DNA from: Tubiluchus corallicola
Lineage: Eukaryota > Priapulida > Priapulimorpha > Priapulimorphida > Tubiluchidae
Length of the DNA: 64,000 nt
Direction: 5' to 3'
NCBI GenBank assembly: GCA_030141605.1
Contig: JAQGDQ010000050.1
Coordinates: 321,971 to 385,970 of the forward strand
Part shown: positions 1 to 41,884 of the stretch, piece by piece
Position numbering within the stretch: position 1 is the first letter of the stretch
Layout of the letters: each line of letters starts with the position of its first letter
Notes under the pieces: model-generated
Told to the model about the DNA's origin: nothing
Databases searched by the model: none
What the model saw: the letters and a program-made list of their open reading frames with translations, nothing else
Program-made: the position numbers and the translations under genes

Positions 1-19924
<19,924 letters not shown>

Positions 19925-22566: not shown

Positions 22567-24928
22567 TTACTGCTGCCACTGCTGTTGAGGATACGGTGGT
22601 GGTTGCTGACCAGGGTACTGCTGTTGTGGGTAAGGATAACCGGGTTGCTGAGGGTACTGGAATGCTGGCTGCGGATAACCCTGTTGAGGATACGGTTGAG
22701 TAGGATAGGGCACAGCATAAGGATTGTAGCCAGTTGGCATCGGTGGCATAGTGTAACCATATCCCTGTGGAAACTGTGTAGTAGGTGCAGCTCCATACGC
22801 TGGTGGTGAAGCGTACTGCTGGGAAGGTGCTGAAGCTCCTGTACTTGTGATTGAAGTTGAAGAAGCAGATGCTTGTGCAGCTGTAGTAGTAGATGGAGGA
22901 GGAGGTCTTGCTGGTGCTGCCCTACCAGCTTCCTGGTGGTGCCTAGGTGGTTTCGGAGGTGCAGCAGCTGGTTGGTTTGCAATGGACTGTTGCAAATCCT
23001 TCATCAAATCTTCTTTTTCAGTCTTTCGGGCAAAACAGAAATCTCCAACTTTCATCTGAAACTTCAGTAATATTTGTGTCAAATCATTATAAAACTTTGT
23101 TCCCTCCTTAAGGTTCGCTGTCAGCTCCATATAAGCATCATGAGCAGCTGCCAGATCACGCAAGATTTCTTCTCGTTTTGCAGCACTCTGATTTGATGAC
23201 TTTTGTTTAACAAACTCTGTATTAGTCTTTTGTATATTAGCCATAAGAACTTCTTGTTTTTTAATGCTCTCTGTAACTTGTTTCTGTAGTGGACCATACA
23301 AGCGATTCAATTCAGATAGGGATACACCTTCCTCATTTATGGCACCATCATTAGCCAGTGCTTGAAGAAACTTACTACTCATGTCAGACGTAGTATCCTT
23401 TATTTCACTTTCCACTGCATCTCTTTCAGCCTTTATTGTCTCCACTTGTTCAATATAACCTCGCAATTCTTTTACAATGGGACTATTTTGCAAAGCTGCA
23501 CCTGAACTTGCAGCTGGTATGCTTTGTATCAGCTCATTCTCATTTTTACAAAGGAGCTCAATCATGGTTTTATGTGAAGAAAATTTTTCTTTGACAACAC
23601 CATCAGCAGTGATTGCATTACTAATAATTGTCTGGTACTTTGAGCCTTCCGCACGCAGAGGTGCTGTCAGTTTAGCAGATGGAGTTCTTTCCCAACGCTC
23701 TTTAAATTGCTCGCGTAACTGATTATCTGACGCCTCTTCTTCATCTAACTGCCTCATTGTTTCATCTAGAATTTCTTTATTTCTCTTTAAAAGTTCTGGA
23801 AGGTCACTTATTTGCTTTTGAAGAGCTTGTAAGCCACCATGGCTTTTAATCGCATCAGATTTCTCTTTAATTGAAGCAGGTAAAGCATTTGCTGATCCTG
23901 GAGCAAGATCTTCAATTCCTGCAGGTAAATTCAGTGATGCCAAAATGCTATTCATTAACTGTGTACTTTCCCTCAGTTTTCCAATTTCTGTGTTTACTAT
24001 TTCAGACTTGCGTGTGTCATAAACGGCAAGAGCTTGATGCACTGCAATTGGAACCAAGTTTTGAAACAAGTCTGTAAATTTTGAACTCATCTGACCAGTT
24101 ACTGGCAAAGGTTTTGCAAGGTTAGCTTTACCAATTGCTTGTAAGTTTGCAACATCTGGTACAACTTCATGGTAGATAAAGTCATTGTCCTTCTTTGCAG
24201 CATCATGTGCTATTCTTACTCTAGCTATTGCTTTGTCCAATTGGAGAGAACCCTGTGCTCTTGAGGTTGCAGCTTGCAACAGCTGACTTCCATGCTGCAA
24301 TCTAGATATTTCCTCACCAACTTCCTTTTTAGCTTTTGCCACACATGCCTGGTGATACTCAGCCAAGCCATGATACAGAGCCTGTTTGCCTGCAACTATG
24401 TTAATCCAGTCTTTCTCCCACTGGTCACGAATGGTTGATGCCTGCATGAATTTTAGTGCTTCCGCATACAAATCTGAACATTGATTTGCAACTTTTGCTA
24501 CCACAGCATCTTTCATTTTATCAAGTGCTGCCTTTAAATAAAATGCTTCCTGAGCCTGAGCAAGCATTAAACTTGATAAAGCTGTCATTGAATCATAAGA
24601 CATATCCGATGTTGGATCTTGCCCAATCATGTGCAGAGCATTATCCTTCAGATATCCAAATATTCCTGCTGCCAGTTGAAACAGTCGAGCAGATGATTTC
24701 AATCCTTCATCCTCATTGTGGTTTTGCACTTCCGCTACTTGACTTTGCATTGCAGCTACATTAAACAATAAACAGGCTCTCTCAAATGCTGCAGTACACA
24801 CAGTTAGACTGGCTTTTCCTCCAAATAATGATCCCTTGTCGAAAGCATCCTTCCATTTGAAAGGAATTCGCACTTGATTTTCTTCTAGTGGAAATTTGCT
24901 TTCCATAGCCATTATTTGATCATGGTAT
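22567..24928 (-). CDS. PDCD6IP: ALIX coding exon 2 (2362 nt, rest of the protein)
   Basis: One uninterrupted exon encodes residue 69 to the stop TAA (22569-22567). Recognisable in order: [13 protein letters not shown] and [14 protein letters not shown] (Bro1), KKDNDFIYH and RKSEIVN with the Tyr at the position of the human Src site, [20 protein letters not shown] and FKERWERTP (V domain), [19 protein letters not shown] (V-domain pocket), [19 protein letters not shown], then the proline-rich tail. PPAY (about residue 777) and PPPY (about 845) fit the PPxY pattern. Confidence 0.97.
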
Positions 24929-27900
24929 CTAAAAGGAAGTAACATATGATACATTAATCAAGAATTACTATTTGTTTTAAATAGCAACACTGTGTAACTC
25001 AAAAAGACATCATAGTGATGGGCATTGTTACCATAGACTGTGATCCCAAGTGTATAAAATGAAGCAAATTACAAACAGCTATGACAACAGCAGTAGCCAT
25101 GATCAGTGTTGGATATCAGAGTAGCAAATTTTCATATGTAGCAGGCAAAAATAGTGTTATACGTCAGAACAAAAATGAATAATTTTAACTTAAAGAAGGA
25201 ATGCTAAGTATTCGCAGACTTTTTCATAATAATTTCTGTACAGCCACTGGAAGAGTGAAGAAGTAAAAATTAAACCTTTGACAGCAATAAGTGAATTGCT
25301 ACTTTTCATCCAGTGGATTTATCAATAATTATAGTGTGACATGTGGTAGCAAATTCTAGTTAGATAGGAAACCTGTGAATGATTTCTTCTGTGTGGTGGC
25401 AAAAACACAACAGCAAACTTGTAACATTTAACTTATCTGAGGATGAAACACTATACCTCATGCATACTTAAGCAATCAAACTGGAAATTTTTTTTCATTG
25501 GCTGATAGACATCTTGCTTCTAAGGCTGTTTAGAGTTATACAATATACATGTGTATAGTATTTCAGCACCTCTTAACCATTTCTCACCCTCTCTCTTTCA
25601 CCATCTTCTTAGAAATGCAACAAATGCTTTTTCTTACAGTATTTGTATATAAAAGCCCAAAATTTATTCAAGTTTAGTTAGTAGAAAGTACGATATGACC
25701 ACAAGAGACTAGAACATAAAATTATCAAGGATTTAGGAAAATAGTAGAGGAGATCAACTGGTCAGCTGCTACTACTACTACTTAGTTTAGAAACTATAAT
25801 TAAAACTAATGACTGATTTAACTTATTTATTGTATATACATTTTACCATATAAGTACTATAATCTAGATATAAAATTCTGCTATTCTTGTAATATAGATG
25901 GAACAGTGATTGTCCTTTTGCTGGCTTTTGCACAAGATCACCTATATTAAGTTGCTCAAGACAAGCAGAAATGAGGGATCTTGATATCACACTAAATGAC
26001 GATATCAGGTTTCCTTACAAAATATATTCTTAACACATTTGAGTCTCATCAAAGCTGCACTAGTTAGGAATATCTTGCAATTATTAATTCAAACACTATA
26101 GAATGTTCAAGGTTCATTATAACAAATTATCAAAAATCAACAAGCTCTATGTTAAATCATATATATGCGTAAACTAAGTTGTAAAGCACTGGGCAGTTAT
26201 TGCAGCAAAACCTCGGACTAGTGGGCATGAATTTCGCGAGATCACACTGGATAACACTATTAGCAGTTCATTTTCAAGTTCATAGCACTTTCAGTTCAGA
26301 CAAAAGCATTTATAATTCTAGCTTAGCAAGGGTCAAGCTTCAGCAAATATTTGCATAATAGTTTAGTCCAGACTAGAGCCGCATGGGTCTAAATTTTCTA
26401 CTCCAGTCAGCAAAGTGTCACAGCTCAACCATTAGCAAACACAGTTGTTTGGGCTTTCAAAACCAAATTTGGGGCTAGATTACATTTTGCTATTTCTTCC
26501 CTCTTTATTTACCAAAACATATCATTCCATCTAAACAAAACCATAAACAAATGACAAAAAATAACACTAGTCAAAAGTCAATTTTACATAATTCAGAGTT
26601 TCACACTGCACCGTCGCATTAATCAATAAATAGCTGTTATCTAATAGTAAATTTTATAAAGTAATTAGAGTATATACGTACGTTATTAGCCCCAAATCAT
26701 AAGCAATGGCAACAGATAACGATTTCGATTGAACTCTCAATTAGTTTATGTATCGGACGCTGCAACACTCCATCTTTGGTCCGCAAGGTCGCACTTCTCA
26801 CCGAACCATCACTGCTCTTGTGTGTCTCTATAACCCGTGCAAGTAGCCAGCAGTTTCTAGGGCAGATGTCAACAATCAAGACCACATCCACCTTGATATT
26901 CTGTTCTACCTTGTTCCATTTAGAACGACATTGTAAGAGTGGTAGATATTCGAACTGCCATCTCCGCCAGAATACATTCACAAGATGTTGCACCTGACGC
27001 CATTTTCTGCGATAAAGATCAGCAGAAGTAAACTTGCCTGGTGGTAATAGATCGAAGTTAGATCGCATCTGCAAAAAATGGTTAGGCGTGAGAGGATTAC
27101 AATCTTCAGAGTCGTCAGATATAGCAGTGAGGGGCCTGCTATTGATAATATTTTCAGTGATGCAGAAAAATGTATGCAATCCCTCGTCATCAAGAGTCTG
27201 CAGATCAACTACTGAACAAAGCACTTTCTTCACTGACTTCACCATCACCTCCCATATCCCACCCATGTGGGGCGCTTTAGGTGGGTTGAAAACCCACTCA
27301 ATGTTCTGCTGATGCAAGCTTTCTCTAATTGTGTCATTGTTCCATGCTTGTATGGACTTTCCTAGTTCTTTAGATGCACCAATAAAATTTGTGCCACAGT
27401 CAGATTGGATTTTTGAAGGCTTTCCCCTTCTGCTGCTAAATTTCTGCAATGCTTTTATAAAAGAGTTTGTTGTCATGGTTTGCAGGACTTCTAGGTGCAC
27501 ACTCCTAGTTGCTAGGCAGGTAAACAACGCTCCATAGCGTTTCACCATGACACGTCCTCTTCTCACAGAAATTGGGATGAATCAATCCACACCTACAGTG
27601 GAGAAGGCAGATGATGGGCGAACTTTTTCTTCTGGCAAGTCTGCCATTTTCTGCCCCATGGGTTGAGCATGCCAAAGTCTACAAAGCCTGCATTCATAGA
27701 TGGCTCTTCTCATCAGGACCCTCATGCCAATTATCCAGAGTTTCGAGCGTACCAAAGACATGACATGTTCCTTTCCGACGTGTCCATGCTGCACGACTAG
27801 CAACGAAAGTCTGTGCTTTTTAGGCAAAATGACGGGATGCTTGGCTTCTTGATCGAGTAAAGATTTCTTTAGCCTGCCCCAACTCGTAAGATGCCGCTGC

Positions 27901-30900
27901 GGTCTTTGTGCAACAGATGCACCTTCAGTGCTTAATGTTTTATACTCGGCTTCAAAGGTCTCAAGTTGAACTTGTCTGATTATTTCATCTTGAGCGTCAT
28001 TCAGTTCAGCTATAATGAGATGATGAGAAACTGTAAACGGTTGCTTTGCCACTGCTCTTGCATGTAGAATTCTTTTCAACCGCAACAACCAAGCAACAAC
28101 TTTCTTTAATCTATGAAAGGATGAATAATAGTTTGTCAATTGATACACAATGCTGTTTGGCAATTTGTCTGCTTTCACCATATTTAAAGTTGCCGATCTC
28201 TTCACTTCTTTGTCAGTCTCAAGCATGTTTTCAGCATGCTGAACGTCAAAACTTGGCCTGGAAGCTTCACTGATGTGCAAAAATTCTGGTCCATGTTTCC
28301 ACCTCTCCGATGACAGTAAAGCCTTGGCATCTAATCCTCTAGATACATCATCAGCACTGTTGTCTTCAGAGCTAACATGATGCCACTGCGATGGTGCTGA
28401 AACTTCCAAAATGCCCTGGACTCTGTTCTGCACAAAGGTGTGGAATTGTCTCGACGTATTCTTAATATACTGCAGAACTATAATGCTACGAGATCAGAAT
28501 TTGGAACTGTCTATGTGCATAGTTAGCTCCTTTCTTAGAATACCATCAAGTTTAACTGCCAGTAAGGCAGCACAGAGCTCAAGTCGTGGAATCGTAAGAA
28601 CCCTTTATTGGTGCAAGACGCGGTTTTGCCATCAAAAAAGCTACATGAATATCTCCACATCCATTTTCCAAGCATACATAGGATACAGCTCCATAAGCGA
28701 CCTCTGAAGCGTCACAGAAGTGATGAAGTTGTACAGATACAGGCGTTTCAAAGTCTGGTGGTTTGATGCAACGTCTAACTTTGAAATTCTCCAGCAGTAC
28801 ACAGTCGGACATCCATTTAATTCACTTAATTTCAGTACTGTCTTTAAGCTTGCCATCCCAAGGCTTCTGCAGTCTGCACTCCTGAAACAGCAATTTTGCC
28901 TGGAGTACAAAAGCATTTACGAACCCGAGAGGGTCATAGACAGATGCAAGAGAACTTAAAAGACCACGTTTCGTGTGAGCATGTTCTCTCTGCTTTACTT
29001 GTATGCCAAAACTATCACTGTCTACTTTCCACTTGACACCTAAAGCTCGTTCTTCAGGAGGAAAGTCGAGCATGAGATTCTTAACGCATTTGCCAAGATG
29101 CTCTTCTGGGACATTAATCAAAGCCTGTCTTTTGTTGGAGACCCATTTCGTCAAACAGAAACCTCCTTTTATGTAAGATCCTCAACAAGGGCTTTGGCCT
29201 GGTCTGCAGTCTCCACTGATTTTAAACAGTCATCTACGTAGAAGTTGCAGAGCACCGTTTCTGTTACTTCTTTATCGAAATAAATAGCATTATCCGTTGC
29301 AGTCCACTTAAGTGCAAATGATGACACACTTGGAGACCAAATGCCACCGAACAAATGTACTGTCATCCTGAATGTTTGTGGTGGCTTGTCAGTTTGCCCA
29401 TCTGGCCACCAGAGAAATCTAAGCATATCCCTGTGTTTAGGTGAGACGAATACCTGATGAAACATTTCTCGTACGTCTGCCATTACTGCTACTGGATGTT
29501 CCCTGAACTGCAGCAACACGCCAATAAGTTTGTTGGTGAGGTCAGGCCCTTGAAGAACCAGATGATTTAAACACACACCTTCGCACTCAGCAGCGCAGTC
29601 AAACACGATTCTGGTCTTGTCTGGCTTATTAATGTTGAACACAGGGAAGTGGGGTACATACCATTTCACTGAGGACAATTGTTGTTCGCTTTAAATATCA
29701 TCATCCACTTTCTCACAGTAACCTTTGTTGATCAGATCATTCATAGCCTGTGTGTAATTTTCTTGCAAAATAGGCTGTCTGTTAAATCTCTTACGCAAAC
29801 ATTCAAGCCGTTTTACTGCCACTTGGTAACTGTCAGACAAATTTTGATTCTCCTCCTTGAAGGGTATTTCTAGCTGATAATGTCCATTCACCAAAGTAAC
29901 AGAGTTTTCCCAAATACTGAATGCCTTCATATCATCTCTTGACCATTTGCTTTCATCATCGCAAGCATCCATCCTCCAAAACTTCTCCACTTGTTGTTGT
30001 AAAGTATCAGATTGAGACGAAGAAAGTGAATCTGCAAGTGTGTAATTATTGGTGGCTGACTTAAGATTCAAATTACCGCCCCTATAGGGCTGTTAAGTGA
30101 CCATCCAAGCTTTGTCCTTGTCGCATATGGTGCATCTTTTCCATCTGCTCTTACCTCGAGTGGAATTAGAGCTTCTGGGACATCCTGGCCAATTAAAAGT
30201 CCTATCTCTAAGTTCTGCATCTCATTAAAACTAGTCAAGGCTGTTGCTAGATCTCGAAGGTGAGGCCATTGCTCCACATCACGATTAGTGACCAGGCTTT
30301 GTTCATCTAGCATAATCACAAGTCTCACAAATATGCAGGGCAACAACAATTTATTGTTTCCTTTCACATCCGTCACTGTGTTTCATGTTCGTAACTGTTG
30401 TGTCAACTTCACAATGCTTCTCCATAGTAGTCAGTTTCAAAACGTCTCTTAGCCCTTGAGCACCTATGCTGTCAAATAAATGCTGCGAGCAAAAGGTGTT
30501 GGTCGATCCATTGTCCAGAAGAGCCAACATAGTTATTGGAGTTTTCCCTTCGACCTGAACTTTCACAGGAAGTATGGGAAGTACCACCTTTCTCCCGATG
30601 TTATAACTGTGGCTAGCACATGTCGTCACTTCTCTACTATTTTGCATATGATTATTTTCAGGATTTGTTCGAGAAGGTGCCCAACTTTCTAATGCTGTGT
30701 GGAGTAAGTTAGAGTGTTTACACTTACAACCCTCCATAGTACATCCAGATTTATAGCACCTTGCTGCCTGGTGCCGGCCCTTAGCTAAGCAGTTAAAACA
30801 CAAACGTTCGTGTCTTGCATAGTTTAACCTGTCAGCATCATTCATTGCTGCAAATTTCGGACAATTGCCTAACGACGCATGCTCAGTGGAATTGCATAGG

Positions 30901-33900
30901 ATACATGGCCTTTTATTTTTGCTGTTTTGAGGTTTTTGCATCACACTGAGGCTTTGGCTGCATCCTAAACTCCGATTTTAAAAAGGCACCTGCGGCTTGA
31001 GATGCACTAGCGAAGTTCTTAGCTGCCGTGCTGCGCTTGCTCTTAGCCTGGGTACCTGTAGGTTGCAATAAATCTCTGTAAACAGGGTGGTTCAACCTGC
31101 CTGCCACATCTTGGATGAAGCCAACTACATCAAATATGGTTGGATTGATTCCTGAACTCTTGTTTCATTAATTTGCTAACTTTGTCTCTCATTACATCAC
31201 CGACGAATTTTTCTAAATCAATCGATGGCAGCTGCATGGCATTATACATTTGCATATGTTGGCACTGCCCTTCTAGCATGATGCTCATGACTGCATTTAA
31301 GTCAGTTGGATTTGTTGCTGAAGCGGACGTTTTGCCTAAGCGCTTATCAAAACCAGAAGCAGCAAGCTGAAATTCATGAGGCCTAATGTCAGGCATAGCA
31401 TGAAACTGTGTAGGTCTAAATTCTGTCGACGATTTTCGGACGAAGTCATCTATTGCTGCATTCAAGCGGCTGTTCTTTATACGTTTCATAATTAGAACGA
31501 GTCTGTTGAAGCGCTGCACTTTTATTCTCCGTTTGAAACCCTGGCTTTACTTGATTGATGTAAATTCGCCACCAGTGACTAAGCATTTTCGATTCATAAT
31601 CAGTTTCGTAGGTGGCGCCACGTGCCTGCAAATTGGACTAAGTATGTTGTCCCATGGTTTTCGCGAACCTATAAAGTGAACAACTTTAACATGATTACCA
31701 AATTGTTTAACAGCAGGTAAATAACCGTAAGCACCCTTCAAGACAGCATTATATGCAGAAGGCAGATGTTTATGAAAATCTGTACCCCAGGTATTGAAAT
31801 ATAAATTTAACAAGCCCTGGTCCCCCACCATCAAATGAACTAGCATCTGTCTGTGCAAACGATACAAGTTTTTCATAGGTCCTTAGACTAGGCCTAAATA
31901 TAAACACCCCAATATTAAAGTAGTCGGGCCACCCGACATCTGGAGCAGCAGAGAGCTCCTCATAATTGAACAGATCATCAATGTTACTTAATACTAACAT
32001 ATCTGAGTCCATAAAAACACATTTACTGAACTGAGTTAACTGCCGACAGTGTAACTTAGTAAATGTAATATTTAACTCAGGCCTACCCAATAAAAGTAGA
32101 TTTTCAGTATTATGACTATCAATCAAATTTACATACTCAACGTAATCAAATTTATTTTTAAGTTGCTCTACTATAACGTGAGAAACCTCTTTTGTGATCA
32201 TCACCACCAAGCGATGCTTCGTTTTAACCTCCTGTAGACTGCATGCCAGCACCAGCGCTCCTAATGCGTACTTGTCATTTGTGACCGAAGGCTTCTTTTA
32301 AGCAGCTCTGTTCCTCCTTAGGTGTGACTTCATTTGAAACCTCGTTTGCAAGGACGTCGGATGTCTGTAACCAGTCAGCTACCTTCTGTTTACAGCTTTC
32401 ACCAGCAGATGGCGCCACATCCTGCCTGGACTCGACCTCGTCGTGACTGTCGTCATCATTAGCACCACCAACTGAAGCCATCTCTACCTGCAGGTGTTCG
32501 TGTCTCAGCTTCATGGCCTGAAGTTTGAGCTCCTGTTCACGAATTTTCAGCTCCTGACTCTTCAGCTTTTTTGCGCTGTCTTTGCTGCCTTTGGTCGTGG
32601 ACCTGGTAGATGTTCTTAAAACACTTGCAGAAGTTGAAGCTCCAACAGTAGCACGCCCGTCATCAGTGCCAGTTTGCCGTGTTGACGACTCTTTAAAACC
32701 GACTGTCACTATACCACCGGGTTGGCCGTCTGCACCAGCTAATTTACTGAGGCCAAGCTCTCCAAAACTCGCCGCACCAACTCTGCTTTACTACCAGCTA
32801 CCATCAAGCCTTTTTGGCGTAAAATTGTTCGCAACTGTTCAACAGTTTTAATTTTTAACTCTTGCTCTCTTTGTCGATACATTGTCTTGCTTTTCTCAGG
32901 CCTGGAAAGATCTGGCTGTGCGTTAAAGTAAAGACCGCCCTATATGCAAAGTAGGTTCACGCACCAGCCTATAGTATACTAGGCTGTCCACGTAGGCCAA
33001 CTGTACAAAACAAACCATAAACAAATGACAAAAAATAACACTAGCCAAAAGTCAATTTTACATAATTCAGAGTTTCACACTGCACCGTCGCATTAATCAA
33101 TAAATAGTTGTTATCTAATAGTAAATTTAAATTTTATAAAGTAATTAGAGTATATACGTACATTATTAGCCCCAAACCATAAGCAATTGCAACAGATAAT
33201 GACAACATCTTATCAACCCACCATGACACGTCCTCACTTCACAGTAGGCCTCTGACACCGATCAAACTGAACACGTGACCAGGCCAAAAATCACCACAAG
33301 GTGGCTAAAGCCAACAACAAGCGAAGGCCGCAAAGCACGCCAATGCAAGATTTCCAGTACAACAGTGATTTAGGAACTGCTATGTGGAAGAATGCTCTAC
33401 TGATGACAAACTCAAATTCCAAGTGTAAATCAATAATATAGTTGCCAAACAAATCAAATACCTGGAGCATTTCTCAAATAATTGTTAGTTGAAATAGTTA
33501 CATCATCCTACCAATATGCTGAGATCACAAATCGAATGCGAGTCAAGTTTGGAAGTTGTTGAATTACGTTAAGGATCTTTAAGGAAAGCAGTAAACATGG
33601 TATATAGCATAATCAGCAGTACACATATACGAGAATGAACTATAGGCACTCGAGCTGTGTAGCTTTGCATTAAAGGTGCACTAAATGCACATTTTCATAC
33701 CTGACACACAGCCGATTTTTTATGCTGGGATGCCACTGAACCGAAGCTTAACCGAATGATCGGCCGTGCTGCCGAACCGAATTCCGAATAAAATATCAAG
33801 TTAAATTGGAGTACCGAACTGAATTTTTTAAAACTAACCAAATTTTCTTGTTGTTCCAATTGAAAAGAATTATAAACTCTATAATGTTTTATCGTTCTTC

Positions 33901-37221: not shown

Positions 37222-37241
37222 TTAAAATATAAAAAGATGCA

Positions 37242-37316
<75 letters not shown>

Positions 37317-38330
37317 GAGGGAGAGGGTCCTCTGGTCCAACAGGTTTGTCTGTTTGTTTGAAATCCACGTGTTTGGGTGACTGTAAGGTTGAATTATTAG
37401 GGCGTTGGTTTGTTTTAGGTGGCAAAGTGGTTGATGTTGCAGGTTTCTCAACTGGTAAGCATCTGTCATTGTAAGCAAGGTCAGTATCAATAGAGATACT
37501 GGGGCGTGGTGGATGAATTGGTTCATATTTCCGAAGAAAACGTCTATTCCGAAGTGTTACTCTGCCCGAGCCATCCACCTTGATGACATATTGGTCATAT
37601 TGACGGACTTCAATGACTATACCAGACTTGTCCCATTTGGTAGGATGTTTCCCAGTCTGATTTTGTAATTGTACCTTGTCACCAACAACTAGTGGGGGTA
37701 AGCGTTTTGTGTGTTCAGTCCACCGTTCCGATGCTTTCATGTGTCTGTTACGCAAGGCTTCTTCTCGGGCTAGTAGTGATTCCTGCCAAGTGTTATGAGG
37801 TTGGTATTATAGGGATGAAGTCTCGTATAGGGCGGCCAAACAGACACTGGGCAGGTGAGAATTTGGTATCTCTGTCTGGGCAGTTTCTGTACTGCAGGAT
37901 TGCTCGTTGAAACAAGTCTGTATTAAGGTCTCCCTGGGGGCCAGTATTATTCATAATCATGCGCTTAACGGTCTTAACACCTAATTCGGCTCTACAATTG
38001 CTGTGAGGAAAGGCAACCGAAGAGAGATGATGATGGACACCCCAGTCTGAAAAAAAATGGCGTGTTTGGAATGAAATAAATTCTGGGCCACCATCTGAGG
38101 CCAGTTCCTCAGCAATGCCGTAAGTGACAAAAACTTGGCGGAGGCAGGCAATGAGACCAGTGGCCCCAATTGGAGAACGTTCGACAATGGGCCAGTTGGA
38201 ATAACGGTCAACAACAATGAGGTAGTAGACGCCCTTGTAATGAAAGAAGTCAGCGCAGATGCACTGAAATGGGTATACCGGCAAAACTGGGGGAACGGGC
38301 GGTGCTGCCGGTTGTTAGGGTGCAATACTG
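37222..38330 (-). pseudogene. Gypsy integrase core and C-terminal part
   Basis: 38284-37793 carries the DDE core: [21 protein letters not shown] and [14 protein letters not shown] stop sits just before it in the linker after CNSIAP. 37755-37222 in another frame has the C-terminal SH3-like barrel (VGDKVQLQNQTGKHPTKWDK, then VIKVDGSGRVTLRNRRFLRK) and runs into the (TC)n repeat. No chromodomain was seen. Confidence 0.88.
37245..37314. repeat. (TC)n dinucleotide microsatellite
   Basis: About 35 uninterrupted TC units. On the minus strand the Gypsy integrase frame runs straight into it as (RE)n. Confidence 0.98.
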
Positions 38331-38412
38331 TTGCATTCTTGGCAACGACTTCGAAGTGCTGATATGGCTGTCGTTATGCCTGGCCAGAATACTGATGATT
38401 CTGCACGAGAAA

Positions 38413-40500
38413 TCATGGATGAGACCCCTTGGTGTGCTGCATGGAGTGATGAAAGCACAGTGTCACGTAGGCATGGCGAATAACGATGCGCTCTTTATTG
38501 AGAATAACACCATCGATGGTGTGGAGGTGTTCCCTGAACTGGTAATACTCACGTATTGGAGCTGGGAACTCCTGACGTGCTTCTGGCACGTTAGTTTCTA
38601 TGATGTCTCTTAATAAGTTCATGGTGGTGTCACTTGTTGTAGCAACTCGGACCATATCCCATATCACTGATTTGAAGTTTGCAAGCTTTGTGGCAGCTGA
38701 ACATATTAAGGATGTCTCAAAGGAATCTGAAGGCGTTTCCTGACAACGAATACCTTCCAAAAAGAAAGTAGGTAGGTTTGGCAAGGTAATATTAGTGTCC
38801 TGTCGAATTGTGGCAATGTCGTCAGGCAAAGGCATATCACCAGCATGGCCAGGGCAAGACGGGTGTCGAGAGATGCCATCTGCAGCTCGATGTTTTGCTC
38901 CAGGGACATGTATGACCTGGAATTTGAAACGGAGCGTCTTTTCCTTCAGATTCCTAAGGCGAGGGTTGGGCATGTCATCAAGGGATCTGTTGCTGAAGAT
39001 CTTGAGCAATGGTTTGTGGTCCACTGCAATAGTCAGGTTTGTACAACCCAGGACAAAGTACCTAGCTTTTTGAAGGGCATCTGCCACTGCTAGGGCTTCA
39101 CCTTCAATTGGGGCATATCGTGATTCTGCTGGTGTGGTGAATCGGCTTCCCACAAGAGTGATTTTCCACCCAGTACGGCAACAAAAAGGAGTTGATTTGG
39201 GGCATTTGCAGTGTTTTTGGAGCAGCCAGAAGCCAATGCCTGACTTTGACCAATCAGTGGCCAAGCATGTCGGCCGTGTTTTATCGAAAATTCGAACACC
39301 GTCTTCTATTTCCTGAACAATGAGTGCCTTGGACTCATTAAATATCTCATCTAGTTGTGCATTCCATGTGAATGGGGTCCCGGGTTTCAGGAGTGCACGG
39401 AATGGAAGCATTCGGTCAGCCATACTGAAAACATAACTAACTTGGTTTATTACGCCGAACCAGGATCGAACATCAGTGATGTTTTTTGGAGTGGGAAATT
39501 TTAGTATAGCTTGGAGATATCGCCGACAAGGGCGGACACTATTGGGTGTAATTTCAAATCCTGCAAATTCAACTGTGTCTTCAGCAAAGATGAACTTGTC
39601 AGGTTTAAGAGTGATGCCATGACGGCCACATATGTCAAGCCATTCTATTGCCTGGAAAAAGCTTTCTTTGATTGTAGGTGACCAGAGGAGTGTGTCATCA
39701 ATACATTTTGTGTGACGGGGTACGTGTGACACAATCTCGTCATAGCGTCTTGAGTAACCATCACCCGAAGCAATGTAGCCCTGAGGGGCTGTTTTGTAGC
39801 GATATCGGCCCCACGGAGTGATAAACGTAGTAAGATGGCGGTCCTCTGCACGGATTGGGACACTGTGGTAGCCATTCCAGGCATCAAGTACCGTTTTCTT
39901 CATGTTTGGGGGTACAGATCTTGCCTGCAGAAATGGTGACTGGGTGTGGTGGGTTTCTCTTGTGACATGAACATTTAGGGCTTGAAAGTCAACAGTTCTG
40001 CGGGGTTGGCCGTTTTTCTTGGGGCATACAATCATTCGATGGCACCAAGTGACAGGTTCGCCAATGGGGACAGGTTCCAAGACTCCTAGGTGGACGTCGC
40101 GATCGATATCTGCTTTGACTTGTTTCTGCCAATGCAAGGCGACTGGGATGGGGTTGTGATGTGCCACGGGGGTGGCATCAGAATTCACCATGAGTTTCAA
40201 AGGGGGCCCTTGCATAAGTGGGAGAGGTTGGTGCTCACATATGTTGAATGTGCTTGCCTTGTAAGTGTTGAGGAGGTACTGTCTCAGTTTTGGCAAATTT
40301 TCTTGCGTTGGTGAAAATGGCAGTTGGGAGGGTGGTGTAGGTGGCAGCTGTCGTCGTGGACAGTGGCACTCAGATGTCAAACCACTACTGTTTTGTTGGG
40401 GTTTGGATATGTCATGTGTCTCAGATGAAGTGCTGTTTGATGATGATATCTCTAGCGTGTTGCACACCTCACCAATCTTTGGAAAGCTTTCTGTGATCAT
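38413..40500 (-). pseudogene. Gypsy reverse transcriptase and RNase H
   Basis: An open frame of 695 codons: RT about residues 105-330, with VTWCHRMIVCPKKNGQPRRT, DAWNGYHSV and CIDDTLLWS; connection; RNase H about 420-560, with ATDWSKSGIGFWL, EGEALAVADAL, VDHKPLLKIF and HRAADGISR, so the acidic active-site residues are intact. It ends in the integrase zinc region (HHSMQHTKGSHP). This is the best-preserved part of the element. Confidence 0.92.
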
Positions 40501-40613
40501 TCCGAGTGCAATACAAGCTTCACGGCTAATGTATAATTTGTTTGAAGTATCGGTGACATATACGATCTGCCTGGTTTCCAGTTGTTTGCCAGCCGTAGAT
40601 GTACCAGTGAATC

Positions 40614-41884
40614 TTAGGATAGCAGCGCCAAGGATGTTAATAGCATGCGCATGGTGACAGGTATGAGATGTTGCTCTGATATGCCTATGCGAGTGAGGAT
40701 TTTAAGGCTGCACAAGCAACTCTGGCATCCGGTGTCTGCTATTGCTGAAATTATACAAGAATTTGGTTGTCTGCCACAGCGAAAACGAAGGGCTGTGTAG
40801 TCACTTGGGTTTATTGACATGCGCAGTGTAACAAATGGTTGAGGCTTTGATGGTTGGCGTAGCCAACTATTACACATCTGGTCATATAGGTGATGACTAA
40901 GGGGAACTGTACGACGGCTATTTTTTTCATGTACGTGTGGTGTAAATGAACACAATGTATCGAACACAGCTCCCTGTTCACCCATTGAGGTGGATTGTTC
41001 ACGACCTCTGTCACGGTCTGGAGCAGCATATTTTGGCTTATTTCTAGATCTACATACCGGAGCGAAATGGTTTCTGCGACTGCAATATGTACAGGTTTTG
41101 CCGAAAGCTGGACATTTGTCCTGTCGTAATTTAAAATCAGAACCACTTCCATGACCGTGCCTTCCACAGTGGCTGCATGGTTCGGATGTTTTATCTTTGG
41201 CTAGATTGTTTGTTGTTCGTCTGTATGAGCTACGCACTGCTTCAGCATTGTGGGTATCGAAGAGTTTTGAAGCAGATCTTTTTCCAGATTCTCTGCTTTC
41301 AATTAGCATTAATAATTCTTCGATTTCCATGACTTGATTTTTGTCGCCGAGAATGTCCAGTTGGATTTCTGGATCTGCGATGCCGCGTGTTATACAGTCA
41401 CGAATTATTTCGTTGGTATAGCTGACACTGGTGTCGCACTCGGGACATTTCACTTCATAATTGCAGATGCCGGCTTGTCCTCGTAGACGGGCGCAGAATG
41501 CACGGATAGGTTCTTCACGGTCTTGTCGCATATCATGCAATACTACACGAGCCACCATGGTGTTTTCAACGCGAACAGCGAGCTTTTTGATAGCATTAAG
41601 AACTACATCTTCTGCTTTGCCACTGAGACTGCCACAGCAGTGAGATCTTTACGTAACGTTTCATCACAACATTCTAATAATTGAATTACTCTGTCTTTAC
41701 CAGTGATACCAGTGGCATCTACGTATTCTTGCCAACGTGTGGTAAAATATGCCCATTCTTCGCTGGTACCGGCGGCAGATACAGTAGGCCTTTTCACTTT
41801 TTCAATTTTCGCAGTTGGAGCAGAATGTGCAGAGTGAAAGACATGGATTACTAGTCTGCCAGAACACCTGTTAGATTTACACAT
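40614..41884 (-). pseudogene. Gypsy gag, zinc knuckles and protease
   Basis: 41884-41603 holds SEEWAYFTTRWQEYVDATGI, a gag capsid-like helix set. After a shift, 41558-40614 continues with RAFCARLRGQAGICNYEVKC, then CSHCGRHGHG and CTYCSRRNHFAPVC knuckles and a protease-like IADTGCQSCLCSL (DTGC instead of DTGA). A further shift near 40620 leads into the pol frame. Confidence 0.82.

Follow-up and report, generated by a model that had tools for sequence, protein, structure and literature searches.

A glycogenin domain resident in the Gag polyprotein of a BEL/Pao retrotransposon lineage of Tubiluchus corallicola

Our analysis started from a 64,000-nucleotide stretch of the genome of the priapulid Tubiluchus corallicola (assembly GCA_030141605.1, contig JAQGDQ010000050.1, positions 321,971 to 385,970 of the forward strand; hereafter, the window), which contains a copy of a BEL/Pao retrotransposon with the catalytic domain of glycogenin, a glycosyltransferase of family GT8 that initiates glycogen synthesis by glucosylating itself, inside its gag gene. 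The domain lies at 31533-32295 on the minus strand, between a SAP-type N-terminal part and the capsid part of Gag. The window copy itself is dead, and it belongs to a BEL/Pao lineage in which glycogenin is a resident part of Gag. Both pieces of the domain in the window are matched by the Pfam GT8 model (8.3e-11 and 1.9e-7), and comparison with the sequences of solved structures returned glycogenin-1 (5.6e-53) and glycogenin-2 (2.7e-18). When the host's own glycogenin was used as a tblastn query, the two pieces scored 174 and 76.6 bits, whereas 20 dinucleotide-shuffled versions of the window reached at most 25.8 bits.

A first-pass annotation, made from the window sequence alone, had described an intronless GT8 segment between two gag portions at 31540-32295, and most of what it said of this copy stands. 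The coordinates were right, and the window piece has no introns, as compared with four in the host gene. The DxD metal site is in the first piece and the acceptor-tyrosine stretch is in the second, where YGYLP and KPW stretches are visible. Similarity to glycogenin starts, as claimed, at the residues EAF (32287-32295), into which the preceding gag frame continues, and it ends at about 31533. The suggestion that the fusion was once read through from gag agrees with a sister copy, L026, that crosses the same junction in frame. The "about three" frameshifts are three frame breaks: one just inside the left junction, one in the middle and one near the right end. Both flanks of the domain match the gag of an intact copy, L019, with the N-terminal part upstream and the capsid (DUF1759) part downstream; hence, the description of an insert between two gag portions holds, but it needs correcting in that the capsid portion is mostly gone. 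Only columns 87-125 and 272-317 of the 317-residue L019 capsid piece are matched, such that most of DUF1759 is missing. It is because of the three frame breaks and the loss of most of the capsid domain that we consider the window copy dead.

All copy counts, trees and selection results presented here come from one genome, searched as 343.5 Mb in 2344 contigs. There were 82 matches to the Pfam GT8 model (a number that includes other GT8 genes), 77 to the first GT8 piece of the window, and 94 to rabbit glycogenin-1. The 94 matches to the rabbit protein form 67 clusters, three of which are host-like: a five-exon gene on contig C2137 and two fragments on contig C2318. Among the other 64 clusters, 23 cover at least 251 of 262 residues in a single row, and 20 of these 23 are free of stop codons. 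The 64 clusters are glycogenin-like, with element context established for part of them; moreover, because some copies with equal scores (C900/C1780/C2321; C461/C485; one partial copy on five contigs) are perhaps assembly duplicates, 64 is not a count of independent insertions. The five contigs with the partial GT8-capsid copy (C1796, C2016, C2136, C2140 and C2209) may be assembly duplicates, or may each have the element inside a larger repeat.

We retrieved 20 copies to establish the anatomy of the element. L019 is a single frame of 2217 codons, which was scanned with Pfam in seven pieces (the frame of L020 has 2201 codons), and the order of its domains is SAP, GT8, DUF1759, protease, reverse transcriptase (RT), Pao peptidase A17, integrase and DUF5641. 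In the gag part of L019, Pfam matched SAP (6.5e-5, just under the cut-off), GT8 (7.1e-20) and DUF1759 (8.4e-7); in the pol part, it matched Peptidase_A17 (1.8e-44), Integrase_H2C2 (1.1e-10) and DUF5641 (8.5e-30) above the cut-off, and Asp_protease_2 (0.0026), RVT_1 (2.2e-4) and rve (3e-5) under it. The order SAP-GT8-DUF1759 is also found in L017 and L018 (DUF1759 at 2.9e-6 and 9.9e-8, respectively). A zinc knuckle pattern is present in seven of ten frames scanned, these seven coming from seven of seven copies, and YVDD is present in the RT; a simple protease motif matched none of the ten frames scanned. Pairs of long terminal repeats (LTRs) were found in 11 of the 20 retrieved stretches. Six pairs are 99.3-99.8% identical (L017, L018, L019, L020, L028 and L029) and the remainder 94.0-98.9%, and the near-identity of the former indicates that those six copies are recent insertions. 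Target duplications of 5 bp flank six of eight copies checked, when shifts of the LTR edge by up to 6 bases are allowed.

Assignment of these elements to BEL/Pao rests on the Pfam matches to the Pao peptidase and DUF5641. The family, Belpaoviridae, has LTRs of 0.2-1.2 kb, a total length of 4.2-10 kb, possibly a single gag-pol frame, and protease, RT, RNase H and integrase (ICTV, International Committee on Taxonomy of Viruses, profile; PMC8742986). The eight copies that we measured fall within the same ranges (LTRs of 288-424 bp; elements of 6016-7749 bp). The Pao order of pol domains in L019, the DUF1759 capsid in L019, L017 and L018, and the zinc knuckle agree with the family as well. What sets these elements apart is an enzyme of host origin inside gag; the ICTV profile lists only gag, pol and sometimes an env-like gene (PMC8742986).

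Some copies depart from this layout. L018 and L029, which are both recent insertions, lack parts of pol. They are members of a family of C215 type (L018, L034, L035 and L029) in which SAP, GT8, capsid and RT are kept, but the integrase has lost its start and the RNase H region is mostly gone; L029 also lacks most of the RT. The LTRs of L018 are 99.5% identical and those of L029 99.8%, and C215-type copies may be mobilised in trans. In L023 and L025, the RT breaks off and is followed by another BEL-like element in the opposite orientation (25-31% matches), probably a nested insertion. Stretches open in all six frames beside L022, L023 and L054 looked odd and proved to be runs of N; tandem repeat scans of L022 and L054 found nothing.

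The position of the GT8 domain within gag is the same in all eight copies compared (L017, L018, L019, L020, L024, L026, L030 and L038). In each of them, a motif, xxKVxxW, ends 11-29 residues before GT8, and the frame that follows GT8 continues to the conserved start of the capsid wherever the examined stretch reaches that far, the exception being one stop codon in the spacer of L030. The nearest relatives lacking GT8 (L047-L049) have a SAP domain, and only 227-247 codons separate the start of their frame from the capsid, as compared with about 543 in L019; GT8 is thus an insertion between the N-terminal part and the capsid. To relate GT8 to capsid divergence we used 112 of 128 rows of capsid matches; of the 16 that were dropped, 14 are second pieces of elements already counted, and the other two (C1210 and C1027) both have GT8 directly upstream. 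GT8 is found within 1.6 kb upstream, on the same strand, for 50 of the 112 matches: 9/10 at 80% capsid identity or above, 25/29 at 50-79% (i.e. 34/39 at 50% or above), 10/23 at 44-49%, 6/20 at 37-43%, and 0/30 below 37%.

The GT8 domain has been under purifying selection, like the capsid and the RT, while the families diverged to about half identity (the GT8 domains of different families are 49-59% identical to that of L019). Within families, pairwise codon likelihood for seven pairs gave an omega of 0.395 for GT8 (twice the log-likelihood difference from omega 1, 2dlnL, of 19.4), 0.339 for the capsid and 0.372 for the RT. Between families, omega for GT8 is 0.006-0.051 (five pairs; 2dlnL 128-193), values that give rough support only since synonymous change is saturated. 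With a codon model in IQ-TREE, omega was 0.015 across five GT8 domains from different families, again a rough value only, and 0.299 inside family A. An earlier, anchored pairwise estimate of dN/dS, the ratio of nonsynonymous to synonymous change, was 0.29-0.31 for families A, B and D, and 0.82 for family C (the C215 type), part of which we put down to misaligned gaps. The window copy, compared with its sister L026 over the first piece only (163 codons), has an omega of 0.371 (2dlnL 7.3), suggesting that constraint on the domain was probably still in force while much of their divergence accumulated.

Residues of the catalytic site are also kept. We counted, among 28 element rows, several of them partial, those rows that cover each site. 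In rabbit numbering, Y195 and K218 are present in 23/23 rows, D104 in 28/28, D102 and K86 in 27/28, D163 in 26/27, and H212 in 23/24; the departure at D163 is in the window row and is an effect of a frame break. D102 and D104 are the metal-binding aspartates. Conservation at 12 other GT8 sites examined ranges from 19/25 to complete.

We propose that glycogenin is a resident domain of Gag in this BEL/Pao lineage and that it glucosylates Gag, its own tyrosine first, giving particles that bear oligoglucose; as a whole, we give this reading a probability of roughly 60%. Glycogenin works as a dimer. Gag would dimerise through its GT8 domain, and the GT8 of each Gag would use uridine diphosphate glucose (UDP-glucose) to glucosylate Gag, beginning with its own tyrosine. 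A short glucose chain would be built, such that Gag and the particle would carry self-made oligoglucose next to the capsid. Such a chain could protect the particle or make it more soluble, link it to glycogen granules, or give it a route into eggs. The element GT8 is probably an active glucosyltransferase that modifies Gag itself. Tyr195 is the acceptor in rabbit glycogenin, which adds about 7-12 glucoses to itself (PMC7046021). A further-reaching possibility, about which we are doubtful, is that this is a clade of LTR retroelements with its own sugar coat, in which a working glycogenin in each Gag self-glucosylates within the particle, and particles can, by virtue of the chain, pass as glycogen or ride on it, for example into eggs. 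If true, a retroelement would have made the first step of glycogen synthesis a part of its particle.

Several observations weigh against the proposal that Gag glucosylates itself. Expression of the fusion and glycosylation of particles are both things that we infer. BEL elements in general can do without the domain, as relatives lacking GT8 demonstrate. Within family C, omega after realignment is 0.685, which does not differ from 1 (2dlnL 0.9); constraint on GT8 may be relaxed in this family. The C461 copy has E in place of D102. The 100 residues that follow GT8 in the spacer of L019 have no match to any solved chain at an E-value of 1, although a short motif could escape such a search; since the tail that binds glycogen synthase was not found there, short chains would be favoured and growth to full glycogen seems doubtful. 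Lastly, the glycogenin homologue R707 of mimivirus keeps the tyrosine and the DxD motif and transfers glucose, and yet does not glucosylate itself (PMC9614988). For this reason, the kept acceptor tyrosine is what self-glucosylation would need, and not proof of it.

R707 suggests an alternative: the element GT8 could be active but not on itself, transferring glucose from Gag or the particle to cell proteins or free sugar acceptors. R707, in which that tyrosine and DxD are present too, can bind UDP-glucose in the presence of manganese and polymerise glucose, but it cannot self-glucosylate (PMC9614988). On the other hand, R707 is only 26% identical to glycogenin-1 in the same source, as compared with about 44-59% identity between the element domains and host glycogenin, and the tyrosine is kept in every element row that covers it; we regard this alternative as unlikely. 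It is similarly improbable, in our estimation, that GT8 is kept for its shape, as a dimer-forming or glycogen-binding module that aids the assembly or localisation of Gag, with glucose transfer unneeded. Directly in front of the capsid, where GT8 is located, a dimer-forming module could aid assembly, and conservation of the catalytic site could partly reflect binding of UDP-glucose or metal that stabilises the fold; against this, the acceptor tyrosine, lysine 218 and both residues of the metal site are kept in all, or all but one, of the covering rows, across families as diverged as those described above.

How the domain came to be in Gag can be read in part from the host gene. Host glycogenin (L037, on contig C2137) has introns after codons 46, 105, 159 and 201, with GTAAGT directly after the catalytic domain; the element domains are intronless, and they begin among the first codons of the host's coding region and extend up to the end of the catalytic domain. 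That only the host gene has introns shows that the source was a spliced mRNA, copied into complementary DNA (cDNA), and capture would most simply have occurred by template switching during reverse transcription. The host protein is 64% identical to rabbit glycogenin, and only 44-59% identical to the element domains (L019 and rabbit glycogenin-1 are 53% identical); the capture is thus old. Two glycogenin exon-like pieces on contig C2318, at 609-794 (minus strand) and 2400-2567 (plus strand), are 54% and 61% identical to rabbit glycogenin; they are either a second host glycogenin or a rearranged fragment.

Most likely, GT8 was captured a single time, by the common ancestor of several families, and it is now absent from at least one related lineage. 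The elements form one clade (support 99/97) when 28 of their domains are placed in a tree with host and rabbit glycogenin, the only two outside sequences. Trees that place the host with either the C461 or the C215 group fit less well (p-AU, from the approximately unbiased test, of 0.027 and 0.014, respectively); these groups were picked after the tree was made, and some branches are long. L023 and L025, whose GT8 domains are identical, were left out of the trees, and L026, which has no RT match, was left out of the tree of capsid and RT. The latter tree, of 20 GT8-bearing and six GT8-less elements, needs two changes. It puts the GT8-less C1776/C2080/C417 group together with the GT8-bearing C461/C25 group (100/99). 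A single clade of GT8 bearers is rejected for capsid and RT together (p-AU 0.0072), for the capsid alone (0.002) and for the RT alone (0.040), and the GT8 data do not reject the arrangement found with capsid and RT (0.215). A single clade of GT8 domains, with a single clade of their bearers rejected, fits one gain followed by loss.

The same rejection could be taken to mean that GT8 was acquired more than once, or that BEL lineages exchanged a GT8-bearing gag through recombination. Indeed, the capsid and RT trees disagree over the place of the GT8-less C2055/C1786 pair, as recombination would make them do, and some exchange of gag between lineages is possible. As an explanation for the distribution of GT8, we consider this rather improbable, given the single clade that the GT8 domains make against host and rabbit, the shared insertion point of the copies compared, and the fact that the GT8 data do not reject the capsid and RT arrangement.

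The first-pass annotation had left two origins side by side, a one-off cDNA capture and a lineage with a Gag-glycogenin fusion. The second is borne out by many copies in open frames in the same genome, the same gag site in the eight compared, purifying selection and the residues kept; the checks that it proposed turned up further copies sharing the in-frame fusion and the insertion point, an omega in the glycogenin part below 1 (0.395 within families), and a host gene with four introns that the element domains lack. It had also raised the case of relatives lacking the insert, with a unique junction and host-gene flanks: more distant relatives without GT8 do exist, but the junction is not unique and there are no host-gene flanks. 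A one-off capture by a single element, now a dead passenger, would fit the broken window copy and is refuted by the many other copies, open frames, young LTR pairs and purifying selection; an assembly join of a glycogenin pseudogene and an element, for which one could cite the gaps in the assembly and the equal-score copies on several contigs (C900/C1780/C2321), is refuted just as firmly by the same in-frame arrangement, which recurs across many contigs and in families with GT8 domains 49-59% identical to that of L019.

The remainder of the window element, which is about 6.7 kb long and on the minus strand throughout, can be laid out from its 5' end. The 5' LTR remnant (33008-33202, 195 bp) aligns with the 3' LTR remnant (26533-26722, 190 bp) with six mismatches in 189 columns plus gaps of 1 base and 6 bases. 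The SAP-like start of gag (32757-32864) was located by tblastn to the N-terminal piece of L019, with the SAP call itself coming from Pfam matches in copies L019, L017, L018, L020 and L030. It is followed by the N-terminal spacer (32365-32661; tblastn), with the xxKVxxW motif, shared with eight other copies, just before GT8. The frame-broken glycogenin domain (31533-32295) is called from Pfam, sequence matches to the Protein Data Bank (PDB), tblastn with host glycogenin, and sister copy L026. Two capsid remnants, on either side of the lost middle of DUF1759, lie at 31187-31303 (L019 columns 87-125) and 31012-31146 (columns 272-317), both found by tblastn. The open frame at 30351-30977 is a putative zinc-knuckle and protease region, assigned by position and visual reading of motifs, with no Pfam match at 0.001. 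For pol, tblastn pieces are 50-65% identical to L019: several pieces of RT (28924-30169; 52-65%), the Pao peptidase A17 and RNase H region (27786-28974; 50-62%, the L019 counterpart having a PF05380 match at 1.8e-44), and integrase with DUF5641 (26724-27833; 65%, with Pfam DUF5641 at 1.6e-25 and rve at 2.3e-5).

Two neighbours in the window are of separate interest. Downstream of the element by about 1.6 kb, and in the same orientation, an intronless frame of 796 codons (22567-24957, minus strand) encodes most of ALIX/PDCD6IP (BRO1 5.2e-101; ALIX V domain 6.8e-89), with the first 63 positions of the BRO1 model outside the frame; it may be a large last exon or a retrogene. On the other side, frames at 37222-41648 (minus strand) resemble, by visual reading of their translations, a second, Gypsy-type LTR element with integrase, RT and a zinc-knuckle gag, and a GA-rich microsatellite lies within its 3' coding part. 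We also looked beyond this genome, in two collections judged to be poor in animal sequences. Scanning a viral contig collection with the window GT8 piece, the window gag piece, the GT8 alignment and the capsid alignment detected no relative. The GT8 alignment found three bacterial GT8s in a genome contig collection, which are uninformative on the element: distant glycogenin-like proteins (L055-L057; 31-35% identity) from two Kaistia genomes and one Hyphomicrobiales metagenome-assembled genome.

Comparison with known systems helps to place the element. Its domain is close to the glycogenins GYG1 and GYG2 of family GT8 (L019 matches glycogenin-1 structures at 2e-84), with the acceptor tyrosine and metal site kept; it differs from them in being intronless, in lacking a start of its own, and in being fused between SAP and the capsid in a polyprotein. 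Mimivirus R707 is likewise a glycogenin homologue with DxD and a conserved tyrosine, here encoded by a virus, and it binds UDP-glucose and polymerises glucose; however, mimivirus is a giant DNA virus, and the available text on R707 does not describe it as part of a capsid polyprotein (PMC9614988). Parts of host genes are sometimes found in LTR elements. Bs1 of maize is an early example of host-gene capture, and there are captured sequences under negative selection in plants (PMC13317346). As in Bs1, host sequence lies inside an LTR element; the pieces in Bs1 are described as not full length, whereas here a whole catalytic domain is resident in the Gag of several diverged families. In LTR-mediated retroposition in animals, the RT of an element switches template onto a cell mRNA, and the known products are single chimaeric retrocopies. 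The capture described here likely took the same route, with a working element lineage as its outcome instead of single retrocopies.

A survey of metazoan BEL/Pao elements screened with a fixed list of Pfam models that, in the text available, includes no glycosyltransferase (PMC3118150), and hence it would not have flagged GT8 in gag. Our literature search covered titles and the openings of abstracts of mostly open-access papers. Among the matches listed, none reports glycogenin or another glycosyltransferase inside an LTR element, and the same search brought up no account of a complete host enzyme domain that is fixed in Gag and under selection in several diverged families.

Our best reading is that one old capture became a resident domain of Gag, a variant of host-gene capture by LTR elements that appears to be new. 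It raises the testable question of whether a capsid polyprotein can carry its own glycosyltransferase and modify itself, and, if true, the lineage would offer a natural example of enzyme display on a retroelement capsid. Moreover, the large counts of "glycogenin-like" genes in invertebrate genomes may in fact be retroelements.

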